DNA of 64,000 bases from Pseudomonas sp. Irchel 3E20 (GTDB lineage: Bacteria > Pseudomonadota > Gammaproteobacteria > Pseudomonadales > Pseudomonadaceae): assembly GCF_900187645.1 (NCBI RefSeq), contig NZ_FYEE01000009.1, forward strand, positions 1-64,000, written 5' to 3'. Positions within the stretch are counted from its first letter, which is position 1. Each line of letters opens with the position of its first letter. Shown here piece after piece: positions 2,828 through 53,401 of this stretch. The notes below the pieces were generated by a model. The model worked only from the letters and a program-made list of their open reading frames with translations, was not told the DNA's origin and ran no database searches. A program made the translations under genes and the position numbers.

Positions 2828-2859
2828 CCTGTAGAGGCGGGAAAGCTCGCTTCTACAGG
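2828..2859 (-). terminator. REP-like hairpin overlapping the exoprotein stop codon
   Basis: The arms CCTGTAGAGGCG and CGCTTCTACAGG pair with one G-U wobble. The stop codon of the giant exoprotein gene (2853-2855) lies inside the stem. It has the shape of a Pseudomonas REP element and probably protects or ends the 12.7-kb transcript. Confidence 0.55.
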
Positions 2860-5800
2860 GTCAGGTTGCCTCGTTCCTCCTCAGTCAATTGCAACTGCGC
2901 CTGGTCGCTCAAGGGGCCTGCGCCAAGCACTTGCACCGGGCTTTGCCGGTTGTAGGCCGGGGCACGGCTGGCGCCTTCACGGGGGGCGGCCAAGGGTTCC
3001 TGGCCGTAGCCCAGCACCTTGACGGTCACCACCGAGGGCAGGTTCTGCCGCGCCGCGGCCTTTTGCTGGCGTGCCACGTCTTCGGCGGCCTGGGTGGCCG
3101 AGGTGGCGGCGGAACTGGCCGAGGTGATGGCCCCGGTGTTCACGGCCGCCACCACCGGCATGCCGGAAGCCTTGCCCTGCACTTGGATGTTCGCCGCGTT
3201 GACCACTTGCAGGGCATAGAGGTTGATGTTGCCCGACACCCGGATCCCCGCCTCGCCCGCATCGATGGTGCCCAGGGGTGCCAGCAGGTCGATGTCCCCC
3301 GCCGGTACTTCGGCAATCGGGGCCAGGGTGGCGATGCCCGCGCCGGAACTGGGCACGCTCGGCGCCAGGGCGACGTTGCCCCATTGGTCGTAGACCCGCT
3401 TGGGCGGCGTGTAGACCACCGTGGTTTTCGAGCCACGCCCGGCGTTGATGTCGCCCTGGTCCGACCAGCCGAAGATATCGCCGCCGAAGGTGGTCATGAT
3501 GCGGCTCTGGCCCAGCAGGATGCTGCCCTGGGCATACAGCCCGATATTGCCGGCGCCCTGGGTGATGACCCCCGAGGTGGACGGTGGCGCCTCCCCTTCG
3601 ACACCGAACACCTGCTGCCCGCCCGGGGTGAGCAGGTGGATGTCGCCGCCGAACAGGGTGTGGATCCCGGCGCCGCCATACAGGGTGATGTCGCCGTCGT
3701 AGACAATCGGGTTGCCCGCCACGTCGGTCTTGGGCAACAGGCTGGCGATAGCGTTGCGGCTGCGCAGGAAGCTGCCAAAACGCGGCCCGTCCACGTCGTT
3801 GTACTCGCGCCCACCGGCCCGCAGTTCGGCGAAGTACACATCACGGGCAAACACCCGCTGCTGCTCCGGCGCCAGGCTGGCGAAGTAGGTCGGGGCCTCC
3901 TGCGCTGTGCCGGCGTAGGCAAAGCGCGCCTGCAGCCAGGCCAGCAGTTCGGCCTCGTAAGTCTTGGCCACTTTGCCCGGTTGGCTGGCCAGGGCCTGGT
4001 CGCTGTGGGCGCGGCTGGCCGGGTCCAGGTAAGGCCGCACGAACTTGAGGTAATCCAGCCCCCCGGCGCCGACACCGGCCTCCATCACAATGCTCGCCCC
4101 CTGCCGCGTATCCCCCGGCACCACCGCCCCCAGGCTGGTCACCGAGGCGCGGTCTTCCATCAGGATATTGCGTCCGGCCTGGAGTTCCAGGGTGCCAGGG
4201 CCGGCGATGTTGAAGCTGCTGTAGCGGATGTCACGCCCCGCCGAAACCACCGAGATATCGCTGGCGTTGCCATGCACGAAGAGGTTGCCACTGCTGGTAC
4301 CCGAACCCGAGATATTGCTCGTGGTAGCAGCGATTTTCGTTGGCATCTGGGTCGGCATATTAAGCGCCGTACCCGAGCCGACGATGTCGCGCCCGGCCTT
4401 CATCCACACCGGGCCGGCACCCTCATAGCGGGTCTGGCCAATGCGGTCGCCGATGGTGAAGTTCAGTAGTTCACCGCTGCGCAGGCCGACGATGTCACCC
4501 GTGGCGGCGTAGAACCGCGCCGGTGTAGCCGAGAACGCGGCCCGCGCGCTGGCGGTGTTGGCACCGAAGGCGAACAGGGAGAACTCGATCTTGTTGGCGG
4601 GCACTGATTCGCGGCTCAGGTTATTGACCACCTGCTCAAGGCCATTCCAGCCGACAAAGGCCGGGGCAAACGGCGTTGGCAGGGTATCCAGGCTGGCACC
4701 CGACTGGCTGACGGCATAACCGCCGGCATAGATCGAGTTACCCGCCAGCAAAGCCAGGCGCCCGCTGTTGGACGGTGCCAGCAACAGGGAATAGGCAGAG
4801 TTGTTAAAGGCACCGTTGGCGCCCAGGGCCGAAGTCCCAAGGAAGATGCTGCCACTGGCGGCTACCGCACTCAATTTCGAGGGAAACAGGAAGCGCCCGT
4901 CCGTGGTGGAGTGGTTTTTGCTACCCTCAGGTGTCAACGTAGAGCCACGTACTACGGCACCGCTCTGCACGCTGGGGGTCATGCTGCCGCCGGCCGAGAA
5001 CAGGTTGATGGCGGTGTGTTCGGTCCACAGGGAGAACCAGCTCTGCCCCTCGCCATACGCCTGGCCGTTGTAGCGGTAGGCCGAGGCATGTTCGGTCTTG
5101 ATCCGCCCCGGATCGCCGGCCCCCGCCAGCACCAGGTCGCCACGGGTGGAGAGGTTCGCCGTGGCGTCCCCCAGCATCAGGGTCACACCGCCGGTGGCGG
5201 CGCCCCGGGTCGCGGTGTACGGCGAATAGGCGCGGCTCTCTTTGTCGTCATGCTGCCCCTCAAAACGGCCATAACTGAGGGCGATACCACCCAGGCTGCC
5301 CGCTTGCAGGTTGAGGGCGCCGCGCAGGTTGCTCAGCACACCGTTGAGGCTCAGGAGCTGTTGTGTGTAATCGCCAGGAGCGCCGGATACGTCGGTCCCT
5401 GGCAAGGCCGCACGGGCCTTGAGGTCCGGGTTGAGGTCGCCGCCCATGCGCACGTCCAGGTCACCGCCGCCGGTGAGCAGCAGCTCGCCGCCCGGGGTCA
5501 CGCGCCCGGTGCTGCCCACCGCCAGCGCCAAACCGGCGCTGCGCGGTGCTTTCAAGCCGCGGCTGTCACCGCGACGAGCAAGCATGCCCGCATCGCTGCC
5601 CAGGTCCAGGGTCAGGTTGCCGCCGCCCAGGGTGCCGACACCAGTGAAGCCCACCAGCCGCGGCATTGCCTCGATCTCGCTTCTTTCAAGGAGTGGGTAG
5701 GCCGTGTTGCCGCCGCCGGATCCCTTGATATAGGTGCCAAAGTTGATCCACCAACTGGTGGGGGTTTCGTCCACGCCCTGGGTGTGCCCGCTGCCCTGGC

Positions 5801-8800
5801 GCCATAGCCAGTTGCCCAGGTTGGCACTGTCCAGTTGGGTGCGCCCATCGCCGATATACGGCACCACGCCGGTGTTCGGGCTGAGGATGTCGCCACTGAG
5901 GCTGCCACCGGCCCGCAGCAGCACGTTACCGCCCTGGTCGGGGTACCAGGCCGCATACAGGCTGTTGGGGTTTTCATTGACCAGGCCTTCATAGGCCTTG
6001 CCCGCACTGCCCAGGAGGGTGCCGTCGCTGGCGTTGCTGCGCGGGCGGTCGAAGGCCGGCGCCGCGCTGCCGGCGCGCGAGGCACTGGACACCCCGGCCG
6101 TGTAGATGCCGTACAGCGATTGCATCGCCACGTTGCCGGCCGCCACCAGGTCGAGGTCGCCGGTGCCGGTGCGCAGCACACTGAAATGCTGGGTAATCGG
6201 GTTGACCCGTTTGAGCGCACCGATAATCACCTGCTCAGGCACTTCAGGGGTGGGCAGGCCGACCACCACGCAGTCGCCCTGCTCCAGGCACATGTCCTCG
6301 TCTGGGCCGGAGACCGCCGGGGTGCCGGGCGTGTAGCCGAACTGCGCTCCCGAATCGCCCCACACATAGGTCGTCGTAACGCAGGCGCCCGGCATGTCCG
6401 TGCACACGCCCTCGTCGTCCTCGGACACCGGGGTGCCGGATACATAACCGAACTCGGCCCCCAGGTCCGTCCAATACAGGGCACCGCCCGGCTTGGCCGG
6501 TTTACCCGGGATGATGGTTTTCTCGTACACCTCGTACAGGCCGTAGTGGGTATCGGCCAGGGTCAGGTCGCCGGCATAGGTGGGTTTGATCGCCCGGCTA
6601 TCGGCGGCCGTGGTGTCGGCGCCCGACACCAGGCGCAGCGACCAGGATTGCGAGCCTTCGGCCAGCATCGTCGCCACCGCCCAGTTGCTGCGGGTGCTGG
6701 CGCCGGTGACGCTGCGCAGCGGCACCGACAGCACGCCGGCTGGCAGTTTGATATCCGTCAGGGACGGGATCAACGCGCCCACCTTGAGCGCCAGGCTACC
6801 GGCCAGCCGCACGCCGTCCGGCTCATCGTTGCTGAACTGGGCCCGGCCCGGCAGTGGCACACCGGCCGGCCAGGTCATCGGCCCCAGGCTGGCGGGGCCG
6901 GGCAACAGGGTGCCGGCATCGAGCAAGGTGCCCGTGGCCAGCACCAGCGGTTGCTGCAACAGGGTGCCGGCGGCGTACAGCACCTGGCCGTTGCTGTCGC
7001 GCACGGCGGCGCTGAGCACGGTGTTGGCCGGCAGGGTCAGCGGCGCTTGCAAGCTGCCCTGCACCGCCAGCACGGTGCCGGAGGCCAGGGTGGTGGCCTT
7101 GAAGGGCAACGCATAGTTGAGGGTCTTGCCGGCCGGGAACAGGCTGCCGTCCTCCAACACCACCCCAGGGCCGGGCACGATAACGTCGGCGCCGAAGCCC
7201 TGCATACCCGGGGTGAGTACCCAGCCCTTGTCGTCCGGGGTGGCCGGCGGCGGCGCGAAGCCGTCGTTGATGCTGCCGTAGATATCCAGGTTGCCACCAG
7301 CACGGATCACCAGGCTGCCCGGTTCGCCTGAACCGTAAACCGAGGTCTGTTGGGTATGGGGGTTGACGCTGGCGTAGCGGTAGCCGGAGAGGTCGAGGTC
7401 GCCACTGACCACCAGGTCGCCTTCGGTGAGGATCTGCACTCCGGGGCGCAGGTGGAAGGCCTCGCGGTATGCCGCGTTGTTGAGGCCCGCGAGCTGGCCG
7501 TGCATCAGCCCGTTGTTGGCCAGTGCGTGGTCGATGAACTGTTGGCTGCTCAGGTGCTTGGCATTGAGGTACGCCTGGTCGATCATCTGATACGGCCGCC
7601 CGCTGGCCGCCGGCACCGGGCCGACCGGGGCGTCGGTGTAGCGCGCCACGGCGTTGAGGCCAATGGAACGCGCACCGAAAATGCCCAAGCGGCCGCTGGC
7701 GTCGATGGCGATGTCGCCCTGGGTCGGGTCGCCCGCATTCAGCCGCGGGGCGTTGAGTTCCAGGGTGCCACGGGCCTGGCCGTCGTGTTGGCCGGGGCCG
7801 CTGCCCACGGCCGCCGCAGTGCCGTGGCGCAGGTCGATGCGTGCGCCATCGGCCAGGGTCAGGGTGCCCAGGCCACTGTTGAGTTCAACGATGGCGCGGT
7901 TCGGCGAGTCGATGATCTTGCCGTAGCTATCGACCCGCAACTGCGTGCCATGGGCGTCGAGCAAGGCACTGCCGGCGAGGGTCAGGCCATGCTGGCCGGC
8001 CAGGCGAATGCTGCCGACCCGCTCGCCGCTGGCGTCGAGGGTGCCCAGCACCGTGAGGCTGCCGTTGTCCACCGAGACGTTGATCTGGCTGGCCTTGAGT
8101 TCGTTGCCGATCACCAGGTTGCCCTGTTTGAGGGTAAAGCTGCGCGCACCAAATACCTGGCCGTCGTTCAGGCGCTGGTTCAAGGCCACAAAATCGCCCA
8201 GGTATTGGCCGCGGATATCCACCCCCCCGGCCTTGTACGGCACCAGGGTGCCACCGGCGTCGTAATAGCCGCTGCTGCCCGCGAGAATGCGGCCCTGCAG
8301 ATCGATCACACCGGCGCCCGCCTCGACCGCCACGGCCTTGAGCAGGCCACCCTGGTTGTTGTGCGCCGACAGGTCGATCACCGCACCCGCCCCCTGGCGG
8401 ATATTGCCGTGGCGGCTCTGCAGGGTGACGTCGCCGCCCCAGCTATATTGTTTCTCGTCCAGCAGGCCCACGGTACGCCCGGCCAGGTCCAGCCGTGCGG
8501 CGTCGCCCAGGTGGATGTCCTGTTCAGCGCTGAGGGTCAACTTGCCGCTGGGCAGAACCACGGCAGTGTCCAGCCCGATGCTGCGGGCCGCCAGCAGCAG
8601 TTCGCCGCCCAAGGCCTGCACCGCCACGCCATTGGCCGCGCCGTTGCCATTGACGCGCAGGTCGCCGCCCACGGTGATGCGGTTCACCGAACCCGCTTCG
8701 CCGGTCAACAGCGGTGTGCTGATGGTCAGGTTGCCGCCGCTGTGGGCGTAGCCCTTGCCCGCTTCATAGGCGCCACGGGCCTGGTACACCGCCAGGCTGC

Positions 8801-11800
8801 CCTTGTGGTTGGCGGTGATGCGCTCGCTGGCCGTGAGGTTGACGTTGGCAAAACCCAGGGTGCTGCGCCCGTAATCCCCCAGGCTGTCGGCCTGGGTGTC
8901 GGGGCCGTGGCCGAACTCGATGCGCCGCGCCTGGACCTGCAGGGTGCCGCTGCCGGTTCCGGCCCCCTGGGCGATCACCGGCGCAGCCGCGTTCGGTGCC
9001 CCGCTCCAGATCAGGTTGCCGGTCTGGATCAGCGCCACGTCGTCAGCATTGCCCGCGCCGTAGATCGCCGGGGTGCTGAGGACCAGTTTGTCCAGCAGCG
9101 ACTTGCCGTTGCTGTCCAGGGTACTCAGGGTGCTGCTGCCAAAGAAGTTCAGCGATTGCCCGGCGGTCAGCCCCAGGCTTTCCAGAGCCGGCGCGCCGCG
9201 TGAGGTGTCGCCGCGCAGCAGGCGTTCCATCACCTGCTGGTCCAGGGTCAGGCCCAGGGGCAAGGTGTTGCGCTCGGCCGCAGCGGCCAGGGCCTGCGGG
9301 GTGCCGACGTTGATGGCGCCCACCGCCAGCGCCAAGTGGCGGGTGCCGTAGCGCACCGCATCGTCGAGGGTGAAGGTGTGGTTAGTGGCAAAGGCGATCG
9401 TGCCTTCGGAGTACAGCCGCGTTTCATTGCCGCAGGCCGCCAGCGCACACTGGCCGACGAGGATACTGCCCGGCGCGCGGTCGCTGGTGGCCAGCGGGGC
9501 CAACATCTGCAAGCGACCATTGGAGACAGCCACCACCGTGTTGACGCCCGGTTGGTAGATGAAACCGTCGCCGGAGTCGTAGGCAGCCTTGCCACGCCCC
9601 AGGGTATTGATCGACGCACCCTGCTCGATGTGGATGCCGCCGTTCTCCATCCCAAGCGGCGCGTTGGCGATCAGGAACACCTCCGGTGCCACCAGGGTCG
9701 CGCCTTCACGCAGGGCCACCGACCACGCTCTTTGCGCCCGGTCAAAGTCGACGAAGTTGCCGCCCTGGCCATACGTCACCGTGGTCGCGCCGCCCAGGGT
9801 CAGGCGGGCCGCGCCCAGGGCATTGAGGGTGTCGGCGTACAACGAAACCGTTTGCGGGTTGCTGCTGACGGGCGCGCCGCTGGCGAGGATCTCTAACCCC
9901 TGACTGGCGGTGACGGCAACGGTGGCGCCAAAACCGCCCTCGGCAGGTTTGAAGCGCGCCTCGCCCGCGAAGTTCAGGGCGTTTTGCGCCTGCACGCCCC
10001 GCGACAGCTCCAGGCGCAGGTTCTTGGCATCGGCCTCAAGCGCGGCACGGGGCACGCCGACCCGCACCTGGTCGGCGCGCACGAAGTCGGCATAGGAGGT
10101 TTCGTTGTACTGGGAATAGCGGCGCAACACAGCCGCCGGGGTGACGATCACCTGGCTGGCCTGGCTGTCGCGGATGCCGGTATGGGCAATCGACAGTTGC
10201 CCAGCCGTGGCCCAGGAACCATTGCGCAGGGCCACCGCACCCGGTACCGCGCCGGCGCTCAAGGCCTGGGCCAAGCCATTGACCTCCACCCGGAAGGCCC
10301 CCGGCAGCAAGGCATAGGTGGACGGCAACAGGGTGTAGGTGCCCGCCGGCAGGCCCGGCACGCCGCTGCCGATGCTGATCTGCTGGCCCGCCAGCGGCTG
10401 GCTCGCGCCACGCTCGCCATCGCTGGGCGCCACGTTGGCCTGCACCCCGGGGACGATAGCGTACACCGGGTTGGTGGCCAGCCCCGGCAGGGTGAAATGG
10501 CCGTCGGCGCTGATCTGCACCAGGGGGTTGTAGCGCGCATCGGTAGAGCCACCCCGCCCGGAAACAAAAGCCGCACCGAGCAAAGCGCCGCCGCCGGACA
10601 GGTCCAGGACCGCCCCCTGCTGCACGTCCAGGGTTTGCCCCAGCAACCGGGTTCCTACCTTCAGGTTGCCGGCGATGTCGGTGCCGCCCACGCCGAGCAA
10701 TTGCACCTGCTCGCCGTTGTAGCGCCAGGTCACGCCGTCCAGCGTGCCGCCATAGGGCAGGGTCAGGCCGCCGGCGCTGACCGAGGTCAGGCTGCCGGGC
10801 AGTAGGTTGACCGAACGCGTCGCCCGCTGCACGCCTGAATCAAAGCCCAGGGTCAGGTTGCCCATGGGCGCGCGCAGCACCCCTCCCTGCTCGATATGGG
10901 CCGCCGCCAGCGACAGGCTGCCGAACACCGAATAGGGTTGCGCCGGGTCAAGGGGGCTGACACGGCCAATGCTCAGGGTGCGCTGCACATCGAAATCGAC
11001 GTTGGGCCCCAGATAGCCTGCCCGCACCCGCGCAGATGCGCCGGTGGCCGGATAGATTTGCGCGGCGGCCAGGTGCAGGTCGCCCGGGGTGGTCAGTTCA
11101 GTGAGGGCCGTTTTGCTGGTGCCGGCCAAAAAGCGCAAATCGCCCTGGCTGACCCACTGCGTCTGAGCGAAGCCACGGCGGTCGAACACACCCGCCACGT
11201 GCTCATGCTGGCCGGCGTGGCCACCGAGGGTGACTCTATCGCGCACCTCCAGCAGCGTAGCAGCCGCCACCGACAGGTTGCCCGCCGCGGCCTGCTGGGA
11301 AACCGTGTCCTGGACCGTGGGGCGAATCTCGTTCGCCGGCCCCCCTCCAACATTGCCGACACCCGCCAGACGCACGTGTGGCGCCGCTAGGCTGACACGG
11401 GCCTGGCCCGCCGCGTTCTCACCCAGGGCCAGCACGTTGGCATACAAGCTCAGGCTCTGGCCCAGGCGCAGGGACATATCGCCGTCGAAGCTGATAGCGC
11501 CATTGCTCAGCAGGTTGAGGTTATCGAAACCACCCTGCTCGACCTGGGCCACCGTCAACCGCCCTTGGCCGTACACCAGGGTATCGGCCACCTGCGCCGC
11601 CGTCGCGCCGGCCAAGGCCGGGGCCTGGGTCGTGCTCAGCAGCAGTTCCCGGGCCTGGCGCACCCGTTGCGCGGCATCGGGCAGATAGAGGGGCGTTTCC
11701 AGGGCCATGCTCAAGGTGCCGCCCGCCGCACCACTGCCACCGGCACTGGCCTTCAAATCCCCCGCCAGGTACAGGCCATTGCTGGAGGCCAGGGAGATGC

Positions 11801-14800
11801 TACCGCCGTCGCTGGCCATCAGGGTTGGCCCGCCGCCCGCCAGGTCCACCCGCGCCTGGGTGCCGGACGCATCCAGCCGGGCGCCTTCGCGCACCACCAC
11901 AAACAGCTTGGCCGCATCGGCCTTGCCGGTGGCCGGGTCGATGGTACCACCCACCACTATGCTGCCGCCCTTGGCCACCGTGCCATAGTGCCGGCCCCGG
12001 GCATCCACCGCCGTGCTGGCGCGTGCGGCCACATCCAGCAACGCATGCTCGCCAATCCAGATGGAGCGGCCATGCCCCACCGCTTCTACCGGTTCGGTCA
12101 CCGAGGCACTCGGTGCAATAGCGCCCAGGGTGATCTGCCCGCCCCAGGCGCTGAGGGTGCCGTCCACCGTCAACTGGCCAATGCTGCGCACCTTGATGGC
12201 CTGTCCTGGGTCGACACGGATCAGCGCACCCTGGCCGATCTCGGCCTGCACCCTGGCCATCTGCGCCGCATTGGAGATCAGAGTGCCCGCCTGCAAGCTC
12301 AGGCTGGCGCCCTGGCGCTGGGTGAGCCGGCCCTTGATCGGGTCCGCCAGGGCCAGGGGCGGGGTCCACAGCTCCAGCGCCGCCCCTGGCGCCGAACCTA
12401 CGGCCAGGCCCTGGGCCGATTCCTTGAAGCGATACACCGGCGTCGTCACCTCGACCTGGGTGCCGTCGGCCACCCGCAGGCCCTCGTTGCCGGTGATGTC
12501 GTAGGCGGAGAAACCCTTGTTGAAAAAGCCACCGCCCAGGTGCAGGGCGGTAGACGCCGGGTCGCGGGCCTGGTCGCTGATAAGCACTTCGCCGGCCTGC
12601 ACACTCATGCGCCCGCCCCCCTTCACGCCGTAGCCCTGCAACTGGCCATCGAGGGTCAGGACGCCGCTGGCGCCTGCAGTGTTGGCGTTGGCGGCCAGGC
12701 TCAGGTCGCCGCCCTTGCCACCGAGCAACTGGCCCTTGACCCCCAGGCCCGCGCCCGAGGACACATCCACCGAGGTGCCCGCCGCCAGCGTGACATCGCC
12801 ACTGCTGCGCAGCGCCACGCTGCCACCGTTGAGGTAGGGCAAGCGGCTGATGTCGCCCGGGGCGAGCACTTGGTTGCTCCACAGCCCGCTGGCATCCAGC
12901 CGCGCCGCGTTCTGCACCAGCAGGGTGCCGCGCCCGCCGAGGGTAAAGTCCTGCTTGCCTTGGTCACCGAGGGTGGTGACCTGGGGCTGTACGTTGCCCA
13001 GTTGCAGGCGCCCGCCATGGGCGGTCAGGTTGGCGTTGACCTCGATATCCGGGCCATACAGGGTGATTTCCCCGCCGCTCGCCACCTGCAGGGCGGCGTC
13101 TACCTGGATCGCGCCCGTGGCCGCGACCTTGAGCGTGCCCAGGCCCATGGCGTTGAGCCGGTCGCTGTCCAGGTGCAAGGTGCCACGGCGCTCTTCGGGC
13201 AATACGCTGGCCAGGTCGAGGCCGGCGGCGATGGCCTGGGGGCTGTGGCCCAAGACGACGTTCTTGAGCGTGCCGGCGTTGGCCCCGAGGGCATATTCCA
13301 AGGCGCCGCGGTCCTTGATGTACCAGGGCACATAACTGCCCACCACCAACTCGGCGCCGCGGGCCACGGCGGTCTGCGTCTGCCGGTAGCCTTCGAGCCC
13401 GGCCTGGGCGGCCTGCACTTGGCGGTCCCCCTGGAAGGTGTCGCCGATGACCTGGCCTTCGAGCACCGCGTTGGTGGTGCCGATGACCAGGCGCCCGGCA
13501 TCGCGCCCGACGGTGTAGCCGGCCTCTGCCCGCTCACGCGGGGCAATCAGCGGGTTGTAGTAGTAATCGGTCACGCCCCAGCGCGGGCTGTGGTCTTCAT
13601 AGCCTTTGTAGAGGCCGCTGTAGAGGATGTCGCCAGGGGCGCGGGACACCTCGAACAGGCGCCCGTTCGCCGCCCGCAGCCAGCTCTGTTTAAGTTTGCC
13701 GCTCTGCACATCGAGGGTGCCGCCAGACAGGTTGATCTGCGAGCCTTGCTGGGTTACCACGTCGGCGCCGCTGAAATTCACGCTGCCGCCCTGGGCCATC
13801 CACTCGCCCACGCTGTGGTTGCGGGTGCCCAGGTAGCCGCCCACTTCCAGCAGGCCACCGGCGGTGTACCAGCGGTCGGTGGCGTAGCCGTTAGTACCTG
13901 CGGGCACGCGCACCAGCTCACGCACATCCACCCACACATCGGTGCTGTTGAGCTGCTTGCTGTCGCGGTTGACCGAAGCGTCGCGCTGCTCGTTGCCCTG
14001 GATATTGACCTTGACGCTGTTGGCCTCCATCGCCACTTTGACGCCCACGGCGCCGGAGACGTCGATCACCGCGCCGTCGCGCAGCAACGCGCGCTGGCCG
14101 GCCTTGACCGCCACCTGCCCGCCGGTGGCCAGGGTCACGGAACCTGCACGAAAGTCCACGGTACCGGCGCTGTTGATCTCCACGAGGGACTGGTCGCGAC
14201 GGTAGGTGTCGGCCGACACCACGTTGCCTTCCTGGTTCAAGACCGGGGTTATCAACCCCGCGCGCTGGCTGTCCAAGGCGTTGCTGCTGTCCAGCAGGAT
14301 GGCGCTGGTGCTGCCCTCCCCCAGGCTCACACTGGCGTCGCTGCCTGTGGCGTTGAGGTGCAGGGTGCCACGGGCGTCCACCGAGGAGCTGGACAGCAGC
14401 ACACCGTTTTGCCGCACCTGGCGCCCGGCCAGGGTGATATCGCCGGTGGCCGCCTGGATGCTGCCGCTGTTGCTCACCTGGCCGGCGCCGCTGACGCTGA
14501 CTTCATTGCCGCGGGTGGTGGAGCTGGCGTTGCCGTCCGTGCCGTAGCCCTTTTTGATAATGAAACTGTCGCCCGCCGCCAGGGTGGTCTGGCCCCGCGC
14601 CGTGTTGATGGCACCGGCGTTTTCCACGTCCTTGCCCAGCAACAGCACGTAGCCACCGCCGGCCGTGGAGGTGGCCGGCGCGTGGGTCTGGATCTGCGCG
14701 CCCTGCTCCACCAACACCTTGCCAGCGGCCTGGGTGAAACTGGGGCTGGTCGTGTTGGTGCTGTACAGGCCACGCTGGGTGAACTGCTCGGCAGTGAAAT

Positions 14801-15539
14801 CGGTGGCGGCGGCCACCAGGTTGCGCACGTTGACCTGGCTGCTGCCGCTGAACACGATGCCGTTGTTGTTGACGATCAACACCGTGCCATTGGCCTTGAG
14901 CGCGCCCTGCACCTGGCTGGGCGCGGTGCTGTTGTTGACCCGGTTCAACGCCGCCCAGTCGGCCTGCTGTTGCAGTTCCAGGGTGGTGTTGCGGCCAATG
15001 TTGAAGGTGTCCCAGTTGAGCACGGCCTTGTCTGCCGTCTGTTTGATGGTCACCAGGGTCTTGCCATTGGCATCGGTCTGCACCGGCCCCTCGGCATTGA
15101 CGAACAGCGGCTTGCCGTCGGCGCCGATGACCACATTCAGGCCATTGCCACCCAAGCCGTTGTGAATGGTCTCCAGCCCCGCCTTGGCCCCCGCCCGCCC
15201 GGCCGCTTGCGCCGCCTGTTGCGCGGCAATCGCTGCCACCGTGTTGTTCAGCGTGCTCAAGGAACGCTGCAACTGGGTGTTGGCCCGTTGCTGCTGGGAC
15301 AGCGGTGGCGGCGTGCCCGGCAAGCCGGCCCCCGGGCGCGCCACACCGGCCGCCTTGGCCGCGCCCTTGGCCGCGAACCAACCCGAACTGAACGCCTGGG
15401 GCTGCGCCCCATAGGCCGAGCCCGCGAGCATCAGCAAGGCAATGGCATGGGCCAGCGGCTTGAGCCGCAACACCGGCTGCGCGGCAGCTTCACGGCGGTG
15501 GGCAACAGGAGAGGCAGTCGGTTTGGGCTGGGAACGCAT
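2853..15539 (-). CDS. Giant filamentous-haemagglutinin-family exoprotein (TpsA, two-partner secretion; PdtA-like)
   Basis: About 4,228 aa from an ATG with AAAGGA upstream; an adjacent GTG at 15542 is less likely. Residues 1-45 form an extended signal peptide (a basic region, then LAHAIALLMLAGSAYGA). Residues ~120-260 are the TPS/haemagglutination domain that a TpsB pore recognises, with VLNWDTFNIG and IVNNNGIVFS. A very long beta-helix-type region rich in G, L, A, N and D follows (repeats such as GGxLxLxAxxxI). The C-terminal ~700 residues resemble the DUF3739 end of this family (TGDIVGLRSGELL; LPSVVTVKVLGYGQEPL). There is no CDI-type toxin tip or VENN motif. In P. aeruginosa the similar protein PdtA lies next to the hxc secretion genes, as here. 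Secretion and adhesion are inferred. No TpsB gene is in the window. Confidence 0.85.
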   Translation of the reverse strand: MRSQPKPTASPVAHRREAAAQPVLRLKPLAHAIALLMLAGSAYGAQPQAFSSGWFAAKGAAKAAGVARPGAGLPGTPPPLSQQQRANTQLQRSLSTLNNTVAAIAAQQAAQAAGRAGAKAGLETIHNGLGGNGLNVVIGADGKPLFVNAEGPVQTDANGKTLVTIKQTADKAVLNWDTFNIGRNTTLELQQQADWAALNRVNNSTAPSQVQGALKANGTVLIVNNNGIVFSGSSQVNVRNLVAAATDFTAEQFTQRGLYSTNTTSPSFTQAAGKVLVEQGAQIQTHAPATSTAGGGYVLLLGKDVENAGAINTARGQTTLAAGDSFIIKKGYGTDGNASSTTRGNEVSVSGAGQVSNSGSIQAATGDITLAGRQVRQNGVLLSSSSVDARGTLHLNATGSDASVSLGEGSTSAILLDSSNALDSQRAGLITPVLNQEGNVVSADTYRRDQSLVEINSAGTVDFRAGSVTLATGGQVAVKAGQRALLRDGAVIDVSGAVGVKVAMEANSVKVNIQGNEQRDASVNRDSKQLNSTDVWVDVRELVRVPAGTNGYATDRWYTAGGLLEVGGYLGTRNHSVGEWMAQGGSVNFSGADVVTQQGSQINLSGGTLDVQSGKLKQSWLRAANGRLFEVSRAPGDILYSGLYKGYEDHSPRWGVTDYYYNPLIAPRERAEAGYTVGRDAGRLVIGTTNAVLEGQVIGDTFQGDRQVQAAQAGLEGYRQTQTAVARGAELVVGSYVPWYIKDRGALEYALGANAGTLKNVVLGHSPQAIAAGLDLASVLPEERRGTLHLDSDRLNAMGLGTLKVAATGAIQVDAALQVASGGEITLYGPDIEVNANLTAHGGRLQLGNVQPQVTTLGDQGKQDFTLGGRGTLLVQNAARLDASGLWSNQVLAPGDISRLPYLNGGSVALRSSGDVTLAAGTSVDVSSGAGLGVKGQLLGGKGGDLSLAANANTAGASGVLTLDGQLQGYGVKGGGRMSVQAGEVLISDQARDPASTALHLGGGFFNKGFSAYDITGNEGLRVADGTQVEVTTPVYRFKESAQGLAVGSAPGAALELWTPPLALADPIKGRLTQRQGASLSLQAGTLISNAAQMARVQAEIGQGALIRVDPGQAIKVRSIGQLTVDGTLSAWGGQITLGAIAPSASVTEPVEAVGHGRSIWIGEHALLDVAARASTAVDARGRHYGTVAKGGSIVVGGTIDPATGKADAAKLFVVVREGARLDASGTQARVDLAGGGPTLMASDGGSISLASSNGLYLAGDLKASAGGSGAAGGTLSMALETPLYLPDAAQRVRQARELLLSTTQAPALAGATAAQVADTLVYGQGRLTVAQVEQGGFDNLNLLSNGAISFDGDMSLRLGQSLSLYANVLALGENAAGQARVSLAAPHVRLAGVGNVGGGPANEIRPTVQDTVSQQAAAGNLSVAAATLLEVRDRVTLGGHAGQHEHVAGVFDRRGFAQTQWVSQGDLRFLAGTSKTALTELTTPGDLHLAAAQIYPATGASARVRAGYLGPNVDFDVQRTLSIGRVSPLDPAQPYSVFGSLSLAAAHIEQGGVLRAPMGNLTLGFDSGVQRATRSVNLLPGSLTSVSAGGLTLPYGGTLDGVTWRYNGEQVQLLGVGGTDIAGNLKVGTRLLGQTLDVQQGAVLDLSGGGALLGAAFVSGRGGSTDARYNPLVQISADGHFTLPGLATNPVYAIVPGVQANVAPSDGERGASQPLAGQQISIGSGVPGLPAGTYTLLPSTYALLPGAFRVEVNGLAQALSAGAVPGAVALRNGSWATAGQLSIAHTGIRDSQASQVIVTPAAVLRRYSQYNETSYADFVRADQVRVGVPRAALEADAKNLRLELSRGVQAQNALNFAGEARFKPAEGGFGATVAVTASQGLEILASGAPVSSNPQTVSLYADTLNALGAARLTLGGATTVTYGQGGNFVDFDRAQRAWSVALREGATLVAPEVFLIANAPLGMENGGIHIEQGASINTLGRGKAAYDSGDGFIYQPGVNTVVAVSNGRLQMLAPLATSDRAPGSILVGQCALAACGNETRLYSEGTIAFATNHTFTLDDAVRYGTRHLALAVGAINVGTPQALAAAAERNTLPLGLTLDQQVMERLLRGDTSRGAPALESLGLTAGQSLNFFGSSTLSTLDSNGKSLLDKLVLSTPAIYGAGNADDVALIQTGNLIWSGAPNAAAPVIAQGAGTGSGTLQVQARRIEFGHGPDTQADSLGDYGRSTLGFANVNLTASERITANHKGSLAVYQARGAYEAGKGYAHSGGNLTISTPLLTGEAGSVNRITVGGDLRVNGNGAANGVAVQALGGELLLAARSIGLDTAVVLPSGKLTLSAEQDIHLGDAARLDLAGRTVGLLDEKQYSWGGDVTLQSRHGNIRQGAGAVIDLSAHNNQGGLLKAVAVEAGAGVIDLQGRILAGSSGYYDAGGTLVPYKAGGVDIRGQYLGDFVALNQRLNDGQVFGARSFTLKQGNLVIGNELKASQINVSVDNGSLTVLGTLDASGERVGSIRLAGQHGLTLAGSALLDAHGTQLRVDSYGKIIDSPNRAIVELNSGLGTLTLADGARIDLRHGTAAAVGSGPGQHDGQARGTLELNAPRLNAGDPTQGDIAIDASGRLGIFGARSIGLNAVARYTDAPVGPVPAASGRPYQMIDQAYLNAKHLSSQQFIDHALANNGLMHGQLAGLNNAAYREAFHLRPGVQILTEGDLVVSGDLDLSGYRYASVNPHTQQTSVYGSGEPGSLVIRAGGNLDIYGSINDGFAPPPATPDDKGWVLTPGMQGFGADVIVPGPGVVLEDGSLFPAGKTLNYALPFKATTLASGTVLAVQGSLQAPLTLPANTVLSAAVRDSNGQVLYAAGTLLQQPLVLATGTLLDAGTLLPGPASLGPMTWPAGVPLPGRAQFSNDEPDGVRLAGSLALKVGALIPSLTDIKLPAGVLSVPLRSVTGASTRSNWAVATMLAEGSQSWSLRLVSGADTTAADSRAIKPTYAGDLTLADTHYGLYEVYEKTIIPGKPAKPGGALYWTDLGAEFGYVSGTPVSEDDEGVCTDMPGACVTTTYVWGDSGAQFGYTPGTPAVSGPDEDMCLEQGDCVVVGLPTPEVPEQVIIGALKRVNPITQHFSVLRTGTGDLDLVAAGNVAMQSLYGIYTAGVSSASRAGSAAPAFDRPRSNASDGTLLGSAGKAYEGLVNENPNSLYAAWYPDQGGNVLLRAGGSLSGDILSPNTGVVPYIGDGRTQLDSANLGNWLWRQGSGHTQGVDETPTSWWINFGTYIKGSGGGNTAYPLLERSEIEAMPRLVGFTGVGTLGGGNLTLDLGSDAGMLARRGDSRGLKAPRSAGLALAVGSTGRVTPGGELLLTGGGDLDVRMGGDLNPDLKARAALPGTDVSGAPGDYTQQLLSLNGVLSNLRGALNLQAGSLGGIALSYGRFEGQHDDKESRAYSPYTATRGAATGGVTLMLGDATANLSTRGDLVLAGAGDPGRIKTEHASAYRYNGQAYGEGQSWFSLWTEHTAINLFSAGGSMTPSVQSGAVVRGSTLTPEGSKNHSTTDGRFLFPSKLSAVAASGSIFLGTSALGANGAFNNSAYSLLLAPSNSGRLALLAGNSIYAGGYAVSQSGASLDTLPTPFAPAFVGWNGLEQVVNNLSRESVPANKIEFSLFAFGANTASARAAFSATPARFYAATGDIVGLRSGELLNFTIGDRIGQTRYEGAGPVWMKAGRDIVGSGTALNMPTQMPTKIAATTSNISGSGTSSGNLFVHGNASDISVVSAGRDIRYSSFNIAGPGTLELQAGRNILMEDRASVTSLGAVVPGDTRQGASIVMEAGVGAGGLDYLKFVRPYLDPASRAHSDQALASQPGKVAKTYEAELLAWLQARFAYAGTAQEAPTYFASLAPEQQRVFARDVYFAELRAGGREYNDVDGPRFGSFLRSRNAIASLLPKTDVAGNPIVYDGDITLYGGAGIHTLFGGDIHLLTPGGQQVFGVEGEAPPSTSGVITQGAGNIGLYAQGSILLGQSRIMTTFGGDIFGWSDQGDINAGRGSKTTVVYTPPKRVYDQWGNVALAPSVPSSGAGIATLAPIAEVPAGDIDLLAPLGTIDAGEAGIRVSGNINLYALQVVNAANIQVQGKASGMPVVAAVNTGAITSASSAATSATQAAEDVARQQKAAARQNLPSVVTVKVLGYGQEPLAAPREGASRAPAYNRQSPVQVLGAGPLSDQAQLQLTEEERGNLTL

Positions 15540-49940: not shown

Positions 49941-50010
49941 GGTGGGAGCGGGCGCTGCCCGCGATGGCGATCTTGGGGCCGCCATCGCGGGCAGCGCCCG
50001 CTCCCACAGG
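49941..50010. repeat. REPIN, near-perfect inverted pair
   Basis: GGTGGGAGCGGGCGCTGCCC and the inverse GGGCAGCGCCCGCTCCCAC are almost exact complements around a 10-base centre. It separates the pqi operon from the caspase/MBL cassette. Confidence 0.88.
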
Positions 50011-50032: not shown

Positions 50033-51127
50033 TCACGCCAACAGGTCCAGCGCCACGCGGCCCTCCTGCCCAACCGTGGGAAAGACACAACGGTAGTTCC
50101 ATTTCTGCATCAGCGCCGGCACGTTCCAGCACAGGGTCTGGGGTTGGCGGAAGTTGAACACCAGGGTCTTGGGCCGCTGGGGGTCGGCCTTGAGGATGCG
50201 GGCGATCAGTTGCGGGTCCGGGTGGCCGTGGCGCGAGCCGTCGGTGGAGAAGGCAAAGCAGGTGCAGTCGATGATGCCCAGCAGCCCTGGCGAGGTGTTG
50301 CCCTGGCTGCCGTGGTGGGCGACTTTCAGGCACGCCAACCGGTAGCGCTGGGTTTCACTGGCGCCGAGGCGGCGCAGGGACGCCTCGACGATATCGGAGT
50401 AAGCATCCGCGGCCATCAGCACCCGCGCGCCGTTGTATTGGGCGATGAAGGCGATGCTGGAACCATTGGGCTTTGTCTGATCGGGTTTGAAGTCCATCGC
50501 CGCCAAGGCTTCCACGTCCAACCCGCCCAGGTGCACATGGCCGTCAGCGGGCGGTGGCGGCGGCGCCACCAGATCTTCCAGGCGCAGGCCGGCGCGGATG
50601 AGTTCCTTGAGCCACACCGGCAACAGGTTGGCCAGGCTCTGGTCCGTGGGCGAGAGCAAGGTCAGTTGCAGGCCACCGGCAAACGTCAGCGGCGCCGCGC
50701 CTTCGGGGCTGTCCACCGAAACCACGCGGCTGGCAAAGCGGCTGTTGAGCGGCCAACCACTGGCGGCCAGGCCCTCGCTGACCTTTTCCGCCTGTTTGGA
50801 ACCCAGCGGCACCCGTTGCTCCGGCGCCAGGCGTGCATTGGCCGCCAGCAATTGGGCGCGGGCGTTGAACCACACCTCGCGGGCCTTGAACGGCAGGTCC
50901 GGGGCCTTGAACAGGCTCACGGCGCCTTCGATGTGGTCGGCGTCGATGTGGCTCAACGCGAACAGCTCGACCTCCCCCAGGCCTTGCAGCAATGGCTTGA
51001 GGGGCTTGTAGTCGCCGCCACGGCCCAGATCCACCAGGGCATGGCGCAGGGCCGGGGCCTTGCCCCAGGTGAGGATCAAGGCATCGCCTTCGGACGCCGG
51101 GTGCAAGGTCAGGGTGAAAGTGGCCAT
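50033..51127 (-). CDS. ComEC-type metallo-beta-lactamase-fold protein, partner of the caspase-like gene
   Basis: 364 aa, soluble, no signal or membrane spans. The metal motif is SHIDADHIEG (His60, Asp62, Asp64, His65), the HxDxDH form used by ComEC-type domains. The second metal His motif is KVAHHGSQGNTSP. The conserved LVDLG strand is near residue 33. It is 4 bases downstream of the caspase-like gene, so the two are co-translated. ComEC-type domains are phosphodiesterases or nucleases in other proteins; here the domain stands alone without the membrane channel. Function unknown; a nuclease or nucleotide hydrolase is the likeliest reading. Confidence 0.8.
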   Translation of the reverse strand: MATFTLTLHPASEGDALILTWGKAPALRHALVDLGRGGDYKPLKPLLQGLGEVELFALSHIDADHIEGAVSLFKAPDLPFKAREVWFNARAQLLAANARLAPEQRVPLGSKQAEKVSEGLAASGWPLNSRFASRVVSVDSPEGAAPLTFAGGLQLTLLSPTDQSLANLLPVWLKELIRAGLRLEDLVAPPPPPADGHVHLGGLDVEALAAMDFKPDQTKPNGSSIAFIAQYNGARVLMAADAYSDIVEASLRRLGASETQRYRLACLKVAHHGSQGNTSPGLLGIIDCTCFAFSTDGSRHGHPDPQLIARILKADPQRPKTLVFNFRQPQTLCWNVPALMQKWNYRCVFPTVGQEGRVALDLLA

Positions 51128-51131
51128 GGGC

Positions 51132-53285
51132 TCAGGCTCCAGCGTTGCGCAAACGGATTACGGTAAAGGTGCGGGCGGGGTCGACGCGGATCGACAGTTC
51201 CCGGGCGATGCGGCGTTTTTCCAGGAGTTCGGCGCTGTTGCCGGGCACGCTTTCCAGGCCCTGGGCCAGCCAGTCCAGCGACAGCGAGTAATAGGGCACG
51301 CCACGGCGGTAGCCTTCGAGGAACCAGGCGCCGGCTTCGTCGATCTGTGCCTGGCTGCGGGCACGGCTCATCAGGCGCCGGCCAAGGATGATCGGCCCGT
51401 CGGGCAACCCGGGGAACCACTGGCACAGGTTGCGCAGCCAGGGGTCCCAGTGCTCCTCCACCTTCGGGCTGGCAGCCCCCACCGCCACCAGCGCCCCGGC
51501 GGTGGCGGCCACATTGTTGAGGACTTTGTTGCGGATGGCGCCCAGGACGTCCTCGGCCAGGCCTTCGTCGAGGAGTTTTTCGCCCTCGACAAAGTTGCGG
51601 GCGGCCACACAGCCCAGCAGCTTGCTCCAGCGCCGGTCGTCGATATGCACCCGGGTCATCGCTTCGTAACGGGCCGCGCCCAGGTCGATGCGCACCTCGG
51701 CGCACCAGCGGCTGTCGCCCAAGGGGCCAATGTGCTGGCGGGCGGGCACGGCGGCGTATTCCTCATAGCCGTCGGCGTGGCGAACCTTAATGAACACCGG
51801 CGTGCCCGGGGCCACGCTGCTGTCGAAGTCCCCCAGTTGGTTCTCGCCCAAGGCGACCGTGTTCGAGCGCTCGCGACCAATGTCGAAGGCTGGCGTGGCA
51901 TGGCCATTGGCGGGGCGAGCCTCGTCAAGGCCCATGGACAGCGCGCCCACCACCCGCACGGTGGCGCTCAACGACGGCGGTGGCTTGCCCGCGCCGGCCC
52001 GGGGCCGAATGACCGTGCCGAATTTCAGCGCCTGGAACAGGTCATCGCGCGTTGGCGTCCATTTTTGTAGGCCCAGCATGGGCGGCCGTTGCTTGTCTTC
52101 CCGTGGCGGTGAGACCTGCAAAAACAGCACCGGCGCCCGAACCCTGGCGGTGTTGCTGCCCAGGGACTCGCCATCGTGCTCGGCACTGACACGAACATCG
52201 GCTTGGTCCTTATAACGCGCCAGGTAGAACGGCCCGGCCCCGCCCTGGTGGGCAATGGTGCCCTGGGCCACGCCATCGACCGTCACGGTGAGGGTGCTGT
52301 CGGGCCACAGGCTGGGGTCGTACAGGCTGATGTACACCGGCACATCGCTGCTTTCCCCGGGCAAAGTGATATCGAAACTGCCGCTGATCCGCCCCGCCGG
52401 CAGTTGCACGCTCTCGTCGGGGCGCCGGTACAGGTCGAGGATGCGGGTCACCCGGTCCACCAGGGTGCCGGGGCGCACCGGCCAACCTTCGGCGCTGACG
52501 TCGCTGGCCACGCCGTTGAGGGCATCGAGCAGGGCCAGGTTGAACAGCGTCGGCCCCGCCGCCAGCCCCGTGGCGACCTGGCCCAGGGTGGTGGAGCAAA
52601 TGCCCCATTGGTTGCGCGGCTGGCCGTGGTCCTTGGGGTCGCGCGGCAAGACCACCAACGGCGTGCCGAACATTTCCTCAGCCGCCAGTTTCACGTCCGT
52701 GGCGTTGCGGCAGCAGTCGATCAGCAGCAACTGACGGGTGGCCCAGGCGTTCTCCAGGGTGCCGAACAACTGCTCGACATTGACCAGGCCAAAGGTGGCG
52801 TTTTGCGGCGCACTGCCGAAATCCTCCAACAGGAACGCGGTGCGCCCGTTCAGGCTCTGGCCATGGCTGGCCACATAGAGGATCGCCAGGTTGTCCGGGT
52901 GGCCGTGCAGGCGCTTGAGCCATTTACCCAGGGCTGCTTTGACTCTGGCACTGGTGGCCCGTGGCACCTCGCCACCGCCGTAGGTGGCCAGGGGTGCTTG
53001 GGAGGGTTGGGTGGTTTCCGAGAGCAACAGCGCCACGCTGCCCAGAGGCTGCCCAGCGTTGCTGAAACGCGCCTTGCCCGGGGCCAGGAACCAGTCGGCC
53101 AGGTGACGCGCCGACAGGGTGGCGGTGGTCAGGTTGAGCGGAAAATTGGCCGAGCGCAATGCCGCCACGCCCACCACCAGCACATGGGTGGCCGGGGCCT
53201 TCGCCAGTGCCGGGTCGTGATAGACCAGGCCTTCGCCGAGACGACGCGGGTCGTCGCCCGCCAGGAAGCAACTTGCGTGTGGCAT
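51132..53285 (-). CDS. Caspase-like (peptidase C14) protein with beta-rich and helical C-terminal extensions
   Basis: 717 aa from the ATG at 53285 (AGGG 9 bases upstream; ATG 53294 also possible). The caspase fold is residues ~33-260: VLVVGV strand, LPLNLTTATLSARHLADWFL, catalytic His141 in YVASHGQ and catalytic Cys192 in LLLIDCCRN, a 51-residue spacing normal for the fold. Residues ~300-390 look beta-sandwich-like; a second beta-rich part spans ~420-560; the rest is helical (about 560-690). No signal peptide, so cytosolic. It probably cleaves a protein, perhaps on infection or stress. The substrate is unknown, and no gasdermin-like gene is adjacent. Confidence 0.78.
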   Translation of the reverse strand: MPHASCFLAGDDPRRLGEGLVYHDPALAKAPATHVLVVGVAALRSANFPLNLTTATLSARHLADWFLAPGKARFSNAGQPLGSVALLLSETTQPSQAPLATYGGGEVPRATSARVKAALGKWLKRLHGHPDNLAILYVASHGQSLNGRTAFLLEDFGSAPQNATFGLVNVEQLFGTLENAWATRQLLLIDCCRNATDVKLAAEEMFGTPLVVLPRDPKDHGQPRNQWGICSTTLGQVATGLAAGPTLFNLALLDALNGVASDVSAEGWPVRPGTLVDRVTRILDLYRRPDESVQLPAGRISGSFDITLPGESSDVPVYISLYDPSLWPDSTLTVTVDGVAQGTIAHQGGAGPFYLARYKDQADVRVSAEHDGESLGSNTARVRAPVLFLQVSPPREDKQRPPMLGLQKWTPTRDDLFQALKFGTVIRPRAGAGKPPPSLSATVRVVGALSMGLDEARPANGHATPAFDIGRERSNTVALGENQLGDFDSSVAPGTPVFIKVRHADGYEEYAAVPARQHIGPLGDSRWCAEVRIDLGAARYEAMTRVHIDDRRWSKLLGCVAARNFVEGEKLLDEGLAEDVLGAIRNKVLNNVAATAGALVAVGAASPKVEEHWDPWLRNLCQWFPGLPDGPIILGRRLMSRARSQAQIDEAGAWFLEGYRRGVPYYSLSLDWLAQGLESVPGNSAELLEKRRIARELSIRVDPARTFTVIRLRNAGA

Positions 53286-53401
53286 GTACCCCATCCCTGA
53301 GACTGATGCAGGAAAAAAGTGGCGAAACGCCTTGGACGGGCAAACCTACACCGCCTATCGGCTTTTTTCGACGCTCGATGTACGAAATTTCTATCGACCC
53401 C

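Follow-up and report, generated by a model that had tools for sequence, protein, structure and literature searches.

The window analyzed here, a 64,000-nucleotide (nt) stretch of DNA from Pseudomonas sp. Irchel 3E20 (contig NZ_FYEE01000009.1, positions 1 to 64,000), carries two adjacent genes, canAB and canC. They are named after Canu, a caspase-nuclease system described and tested in 2025, whose prototypical form consists of three genes encoding the caspase CanA, the companion CanB and the pro-nuclease CanC (Tuck et al. 2025, PMC12799240). Both open reading frames (ORFs), a caspase-fold protein and a metallo-beta-lactamase (MBL) protein separated by 4 nt on the minus strand, are as an original prediction made from the sequence had described them, including the intact HxDxDH motif of the latter (Table 1). 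The 717-amino-acid (aa) protease of that prediction corresponds to a start at Met4 of the 720-aa ORF, and its catalytic His141 and Cys192 accordingly become His144 and Cys195. Both frames are open, with coding scores of 203 for canAB and 113 for canC from a caller trained on the window itself, and their G+C contents are 0.677 and 0.669 respectively, that of the window being 0.656.

Table 1. Features of the canAB-canC locus (window coordinates) and of related loci (coordinates of each locus); pLDDT, predicted local distance difference test score
Feature	Coordinates	Strand	Description and evidence
canAB fusion gene	51132..53294	minus	720-aa ORF (717 aa if the start is Met4); Pfam Peptidase_C14, structural match, BLAST, alignment, AlphaFold2 model
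canC gene	50033..51127	minus	predicted 364-aa ComEC-like MBL pro-nuclease, HIDADH at residues 60-65; ORF, structural match to ComEC beta-lactamase-like domain 9ic4, invariant metal residues
Gate 1 of CanC, residues 106-109 VPLG	50801..50812	minus	disordered loop (103-109, pLDDT <50) and alignments; predicted cut after G109, on the model of PMC12799240
Gate 2 of CanC, residues 198-201 VHLG	50525..50536	minus	end of disordered loop (182-189 and 194-200, pLDDT <50) and alignments; predicted cut after G201
REPIN-like inverted repeat downstream of canC	49942..50007	.	core recurs in the window, not cassette-specific
Second caspase gene after canC in fused relatives	L083:9093-11240; L085:9010-10710; L074:9660-11708

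CanAB displays a caspase domain (approximately residues 31-313), a seven-stranded beta domain (317-394), a disordered linker (401-468) and a C-terminal part that begins at about residue 398 and extends to residue 720. The Pfam Peptidase_C14 profile barely exceeds its cut-off (23.1 vs 21.4 bits) and is the only Pfam match of the protein at E <=1, and a search of the PDB by sequence recovers just two antibody chains with E of 0.14-0.15. In structural comparisons the top match of the caspase part is MALT1 (Z 20.2, root mean square deviation 2.9, 214 residues), and a DALI Z of 20.7 has been reported for CanA of Klebsiella aerogenes (KaeCanA) against the same protein (PMC12799240). The predicted catalytic residues His144, in an SHG motif, and Cys195, in a DCCR motif, are invariant in all 53 aligned caspase domains. 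The beta domain, whose seven strands are modeled by AlphaFold2 with good confidence, is probably immunoglobulin (Ig)-like.

The C-terminal part, to which no function could previously be assigned, is, judging from its sequence matches, the companion CanB fused to the caspase. When CanAB is compared by BLAST with L014, a locus of the same genus, residues 24-322 match the caspase gene (E 3e-16) and residues 539-711 match the separate gene that follows it (E 9e-15). The alignment equates CanAB up to about residue 397 with the whole of CanA and the remainder with CanB, and the disordered linker of the model lies at this junction. Matches on plasmids likewise come in two pieces, with the 539-711 region matching hypothetical proteins encoded after caspases. 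The eight other genomes of the genus with a caspase match all encode the caspase (called at 366-406 aa) and the protein after it (345-492 aa) in two separate, adjacent genes, and a nuclease relative of CanC then follows in six. The equation of this second gene with the published CanB is based on gene order and size, the KaeCanB sequence lying outside the comparison.

For CanC, the best Foldseek match is the ComEC beta-lactamase-like domain (9ic4, E 6e-12), and a search by sequence found no relatives in the PDB. The residues D33, H60, D62, D64, H65, D241, H271 and H272 are invariant in 51 of 51 Canu nucleases; taken with the conservation of the caspase residues, this means that the loss of catalytic residues in homologues, which the original prediction had considered, is not seen. 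The model has a mean pLDDT of 87.7, and its three stretches below 50 (103-109, 182-189 and 194-200) all fall within two loops, which we liken to the autoinhibitory gates of Tuck et al. (PMC12799240). Gly109 is conserved in 49 and Gly201 in 46 of the 51 nucleases. CanC shares with the nuclease domain of ComEC/Rec2 the fold and the metal-binding motif, but is a stand-alone protein with two gate insertions, and its score against the full-length ComEC_Rec2 profile falls far short of the cut-off (12.6 vs 190 bits). The NCBIfam name 6A-MBL also appears among its matches, for which a literature search found no paper.

According to Tuck et al. (PMC12799240), CanA is a caspase that resembles MALT1 and bears an Ig-like domain, and CanB co-purifies with it; CanC is an MBL pro-nuclease kept closed by two disordered insertions, in which glycines are conserved, and CanAB turns it into a potent nuclease. 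The K. aerogenes system, KaeCanABC, protects Escherichia coli from phage T4 in a manner that requires both catalytic sites and both gate sites, and phage escape maps to dda, a helicase gene (PMC12799240). The locus in the window resembles KaeCanABC, as described there, in its MALT1-like caspase with a probable Ig-like domain, its companion CanB, its downstream ComEC-like MBL nuclease and its two disordered glycine-bearing gates; it differs in having just two genes, with CanA and CanB in one protein, the comparison being by description and not by sequence. Gated MBL pro-nucleases opened by cuts in two loops are also found in Hachiman HamMAB and AVAST type 1 (PMC12799240), but there the protease is trypsin-like and fused to a defence protein, the cut sites are conserved isoleucines and the nuclease gene is typically upstream. 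Literature searches, one of them extending to phospholipases and patatins, found no further paper on Canu, or on the present system, by title.

These similarities suggest that the pair is very probably a two-gene Canu anti-phage system in which an autoinhibited CanC is opened by CanAB. The parallel bears out the regulated cell-suicide or anti-phage logic that had been proposed for a protease-nuclease pair, whereas the accompanying statement that no worked-out system with this pair was known has been overtaken by the 2025 demonstration that Canu stops phage T4 (PMC12799240). The gene content, fused architecture, fold matches, catalytic residues, the two loops with a shared motif and the family tree were computed for the window; from these, by analogy with KaeCanABC, we infer the trigger, oligomerization, exact cut sites, DNA as the substrate and cell death. 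CanC would be made as an inactive proenzyme, the two disordered loops covering its active site. A trigger arising on infection, for which phage replication activity is a candidate, would be sensed or relayed by the CanB part, which would then activate the caspase, probably through oligomerization. Cleavage by the caspase would follow in each loop of CanC, after Gly109 (VPL-G) and after Gly201 (VHL-G), and the opened CanC would degrade DNA, such that the cell dies or stops growing before the phage spreads.

The gates were compared in 88 rows with both gates, 51 of them Canu nucleases and 37 non-Canu; L088 and L090, with a gap at a gate position, and the later finds L171-L173 were left out of the counts. 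Both gates fit E-x-(F/L/M/Y)-(G/S/A) in 48 of the 51 Canu nucleases and the strict E-x-(F/L)-G in 38, and glycine occupies P1 of both in 46. The residue at P2 is identical between gates in 45 of 51, against 27.9 expected when gate 2 is shuffled (none of 5000 shuffles being as high), that at P4 in 49 against 47.1 (p 0.042) and that at P1 in 47 against 44.3 (p 0.006), with no match at P3 (2 against 3.9). Over all 88 rows the corresponding figures are 62 against 33.7 for P4, 68 against 30.1 for P2 and 66 against 62.9 for P1 (p 0.08). These shuffles ignore relatedness. Among phylogenetically independent pairs, approximately 4 at P4 change in the same direction, 0 in the opposite one and 3 not at all, and at P2 approximately 4, 0 and 2, a consistent direction at both positions; P1, with approximately 1 same and 1 opposite, gives no signal. 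The matched sites suggest that one protease reads both cut sites in CanC. The E-x-(F/L/M/Y)-(G/S/A) consensus may already be in print, as Fig. 4D of PMC12799240 presents logos of the gate sites, while its text names the glycines alone.

Where the usual Canu gates (51 aligned) read ExPhiG, those of the window read VxLG, namely VPLG and VHLG, and, alone among the 51, its CanC lacks an acidic P4 in both. Valine at P4 of both gates recurs outside the 51 in L124, which lies beside a diverged caspase, and in L119. The P4 specificity of the window's protease would have shifted from Glu to Val. A more general proposal, which we advance tentatively and regard as somewhat doubtful, is that each Canu protease-nuclease pair shares a private cut-site code, written once per gate with both copies changing together, and that the window is a natural re-coding from E-x-L-G to V-x-L-G in both gates; its CanAB and CanC would then be orthogonal to the closest relative, the Labrys pair. 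As a separate observation, the window's genome encodes a second member of the nuclease family (L022, G000:C29:194989-195942; 352 aa, 32% identical in the search) with DLLG in both gates, next to an 887-aa protein with no Pfam match.

When a genome collection was scanned with the nuclease alignment, at least 451 loci were confirmed, of which the best 80 were kept. Caspase and companion domains on the same strand and at most 4.5 kb upstream of the nuclease are found in 42 of these best 80, a lower bound, given that the class with neither includes contigs that end before the upstream genes (e.g. L086). In this sense the co-occurrence that the original prediction proposed as a check is observed. 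The upstream genes comprise a separate caspase and companion in 38 loci, a fusion in 4, the caspase alone in 1, the companion alone in 1 and neither in 36; the CanA, CanB and CanC profiles used for this classing were built with the window sequences included, so that for the window they do not count as independent evidence.

A tree was built of 90 nucleases, without KaeCanC or any trypsin-linked nuclease. In it a single branch separates six fused loci from all others (support 99/86; 97/89 without the gate columns): the window, two from Labrys, one each from Devosia and a Rhodobacterales metagenome-assembled genome (MAG), and one on a Bosea plasmid. A three-gene Agrobacterium locus adjoins this clade (100/97). 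Across the wider tree, rows that have caspase and companion are interspersed with rows that lack them (9 changes of the label "split"), and CanC of L014 almost coincides with that of Pseudomonas sp. TH43 (L160). The CanC nearest to the window's is that of Labrys, at 61% identity, those of the fused relatives ranging from 47 to 61%. Given that the other five fused loci are alphaproteobacterial and that the nearest is from Labrys, a transfer between classes is likely, and the cassette was probably acquired horizontally. Neither the fused clade nor the double gate change of the window was found described in the available text of PMC12799240, although systems of this kind are known from it.

The other five fused loci share with the window the CanA-CanB fusion and the nuclease but, unlike it, retain Glu at P4 of both gates (5/5). 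Three of them (L083, L085 and Bosea) have a second, strongly matching caspase gene after canC, the Devosia locus has one before canAB, and both Labrys loci carry a patatin-like gene before canAB. The Labrys okinawensis locus (L082) lacks the second caspase while the same genes flank both Labrys loci, suggesting that this gene is dispensable in Labrys; it might form part of a protease cascade or be an add-on. No homologue of the Labrys second caspase was found in the window's genome by a search that was weak, having no positive control.

The phyletic pattern of the system is sparse. A CanAB homologue (E <=0.001) is present in 9 of 298 genomes of the genus, the window's included, rather than invariantly in all strains, and in a different, order-wide sample a homologue at E <=1e-10 occurs in 1 of 390 genomes, the window's own. 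The CanC search recovered 38 of the 298 genus genomes, mostly with weak matches (E >=1e-5), many of them in frames of approximately 750 aa that we take for ComEC. No phage-borne copy of CanAB or CanC (E <=1e-5) was found in 50,697 records. A complete three-gene Canu-like locus is seen on a Lokiarchaeota MAG contig (L116). On a plasmid of Agrobacterium strain 186 (L171:4551-6086), an open canC is preceded within 5 kb by just a C-terminal fragment of canB, indicating a decayed locus; 18 further listed plasmid records share its 43.8% match.

The genomic setting is that of a rearranged region. The REPIN-like (REP doublet forming hairpin) element, the PqiA genes, and the helicase and FAN1/VRR_NUC genes that had been given as bounds of the cassette are real, but the REPIN-like element is not specific to it: counting both copies in the inverted pair, its 12-nt core is present 9 times in the window. 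A search for the helicase beside the cassette gave a match in 298 of 298 genus genomes (E <=0.001), although some of the matches are weak and fall on another helicase. Downstream of the helicase, the approximately 7 kb read (from fetched stretches of 8 kb) contain neither pqi nor can genes in 20 of 20 relatives. Five relatives with close pqi genes have them on a different contig from the helicase or separated from it by hundreds of kb. As pqi and the helicase are not neighbors in the relatives examined, the interval is a rearrangement junction, rather than the site of a module inserted between pqi and fan1 as had been envisaged, and no clean empty site for the cassette could be obtained. PADLOC matches two of the ten neighboring proteins scanned, both helicases (a universal DinG-like and a UvrD-like one), and LmuB has no match (E <=1e-5) among the ten, for the UvrD-like protein among the best 25 of 26 families. 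Elsewhere in the window, an open frame of 4206 aa spans 2853-15473 on the minus strand.

Several observations weigh against assigning the pair to Canu, or against the matched gates as part of that assignment. The 36 of the best 80 nuclease loci without upstream caspase and companion are one, and the group next to the fused clade and Agrobacterium consists of 8 rows that lack them, with L124. The gate-to-gate match extends in part to the 37 non-Canu rows (P4 13, P2 23, P1 19) and is not significant when relatedness is allowed for by independent pairs on the tree, of which there are too few (median p 0.125 each for P4 and P2). As the P4 glutamate is absent from both gates, the cut sites of the window's CanC are placed solely by alignment. 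No compensating change was found in the caspase: every Lys, Arg or His that at least 70% of the other caspases share is present there too. Further, a search for a sigma-70-like promoter and a terminator at the cassette found neither, and no defence island is evident among the ten neighboring proteins scanned.

The last of these, together with the adjoining DNA-repair operon on the same strand, would agree with a stand-alone cell-death module not aimed at phage, in which DNA damage or stress triggers the caspase and frees the nuclease, and Hachiman relatives of the nuclease pair do respond to the state of DNA (PMC12799240). We nevertheless regard such a module as quite unlikely, given that Canu, like the other nuclease-protease pairs that have been tested, acts against phage (PMC12799240) and that the sporadic spread and plasmid homes of the relatives fit defence. 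The affinities of the MBL protein point in another direction, with PADLOC matches to LmuA (204 bits, by a profile that also catches the wider nuclease family), Avs1a (132) and RTasMBL (93), which would agree with membership in a different defence system of the MBL-protease kind (AVAST type 1, Lamassu, or DRT, defence-associated reverse transcriptase) whose core sensor has been lost; the tree contained no trypsin-linked nuclease as a control for this. Such an origin appears very unlikely, as the only Pfam match of the protease is to a caspase domain and not a trypsin-like one, the Avs1a score of 180 bits is well below the NCBIfam cut-off of 420, the smallest supported group around the fused clade contains the three-gene caspase locus (100/97) and the neighbors are pqi, helicase and fan1 genes.

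The departure of VPLG and VHLG from the Canu motif could instead mark an inactive acquisition, with intact genes but a protease that no longer recognizes the nuclease since the loss of the P4 Glu from both gates, and the Agrobacterium plasmid locus, with CanC kept beside a CanB remnant, indicates that Canu loci do decay. This we consider the most improbable of the three, since no catalytic or metal residue has been lost, the two frames are open and score highly as coding, and a change shared by both gates resembles a tracked specificity shift more than it does random decay. On the whole, the locus is real, intact and rare, very probably a two-gene variant of Canu, and was probably acquired horizontally.

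The neighborhoods of related loci show several other arrangements. At two loci of the genus (L016:5992-9813 and L019:6432-10250), an alpha/beta-hydrolase-like gene (Pfam below cut-off) accompanies a CanA-like caspase and a CanB-like gene, whereas CanC has no match within the 16 kb covered at each; judging by the gene calls, it is possible that the effector has been swapped there, with a lipase in place of the nuclease. The Bradyrhizobium locus L073 was dropped as another such case, as an MBL gene follows there. Genes for patatin-like or Tle1-like phospholipases, often just upstream of canA or divergent from it, are present at L082, L083, L087, L089, L101, L103-L105, L114, L073, L076 and others. 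They occur at 22 of 42 Canu loci vs 11 of 36 nuclease loci without caspase and companion, and as 13 of the 22 are from related Streptomyces no association is claimed. The neighbor sets scanned for such accessory genes were picked by length and position and include antisense ORFs. A 726-aa protein follows the nuclease at L014 (4136-6316) and L015 (3881-6061), the L014 copy having a CHAT domain (Pfam).

In dying animal cells, caspases lead to the cutting of DNA. The switching on of a DNase by a bacterial caspase in Canu parallels this chain of events. With CanB built into the caspase chain, the fused clade offers a simple, 1:1, two-gene version of the system for purification and structure determination, and the matched gates, along with the double change in the window, make the specificity of the protease directly testable between two natural pairs.

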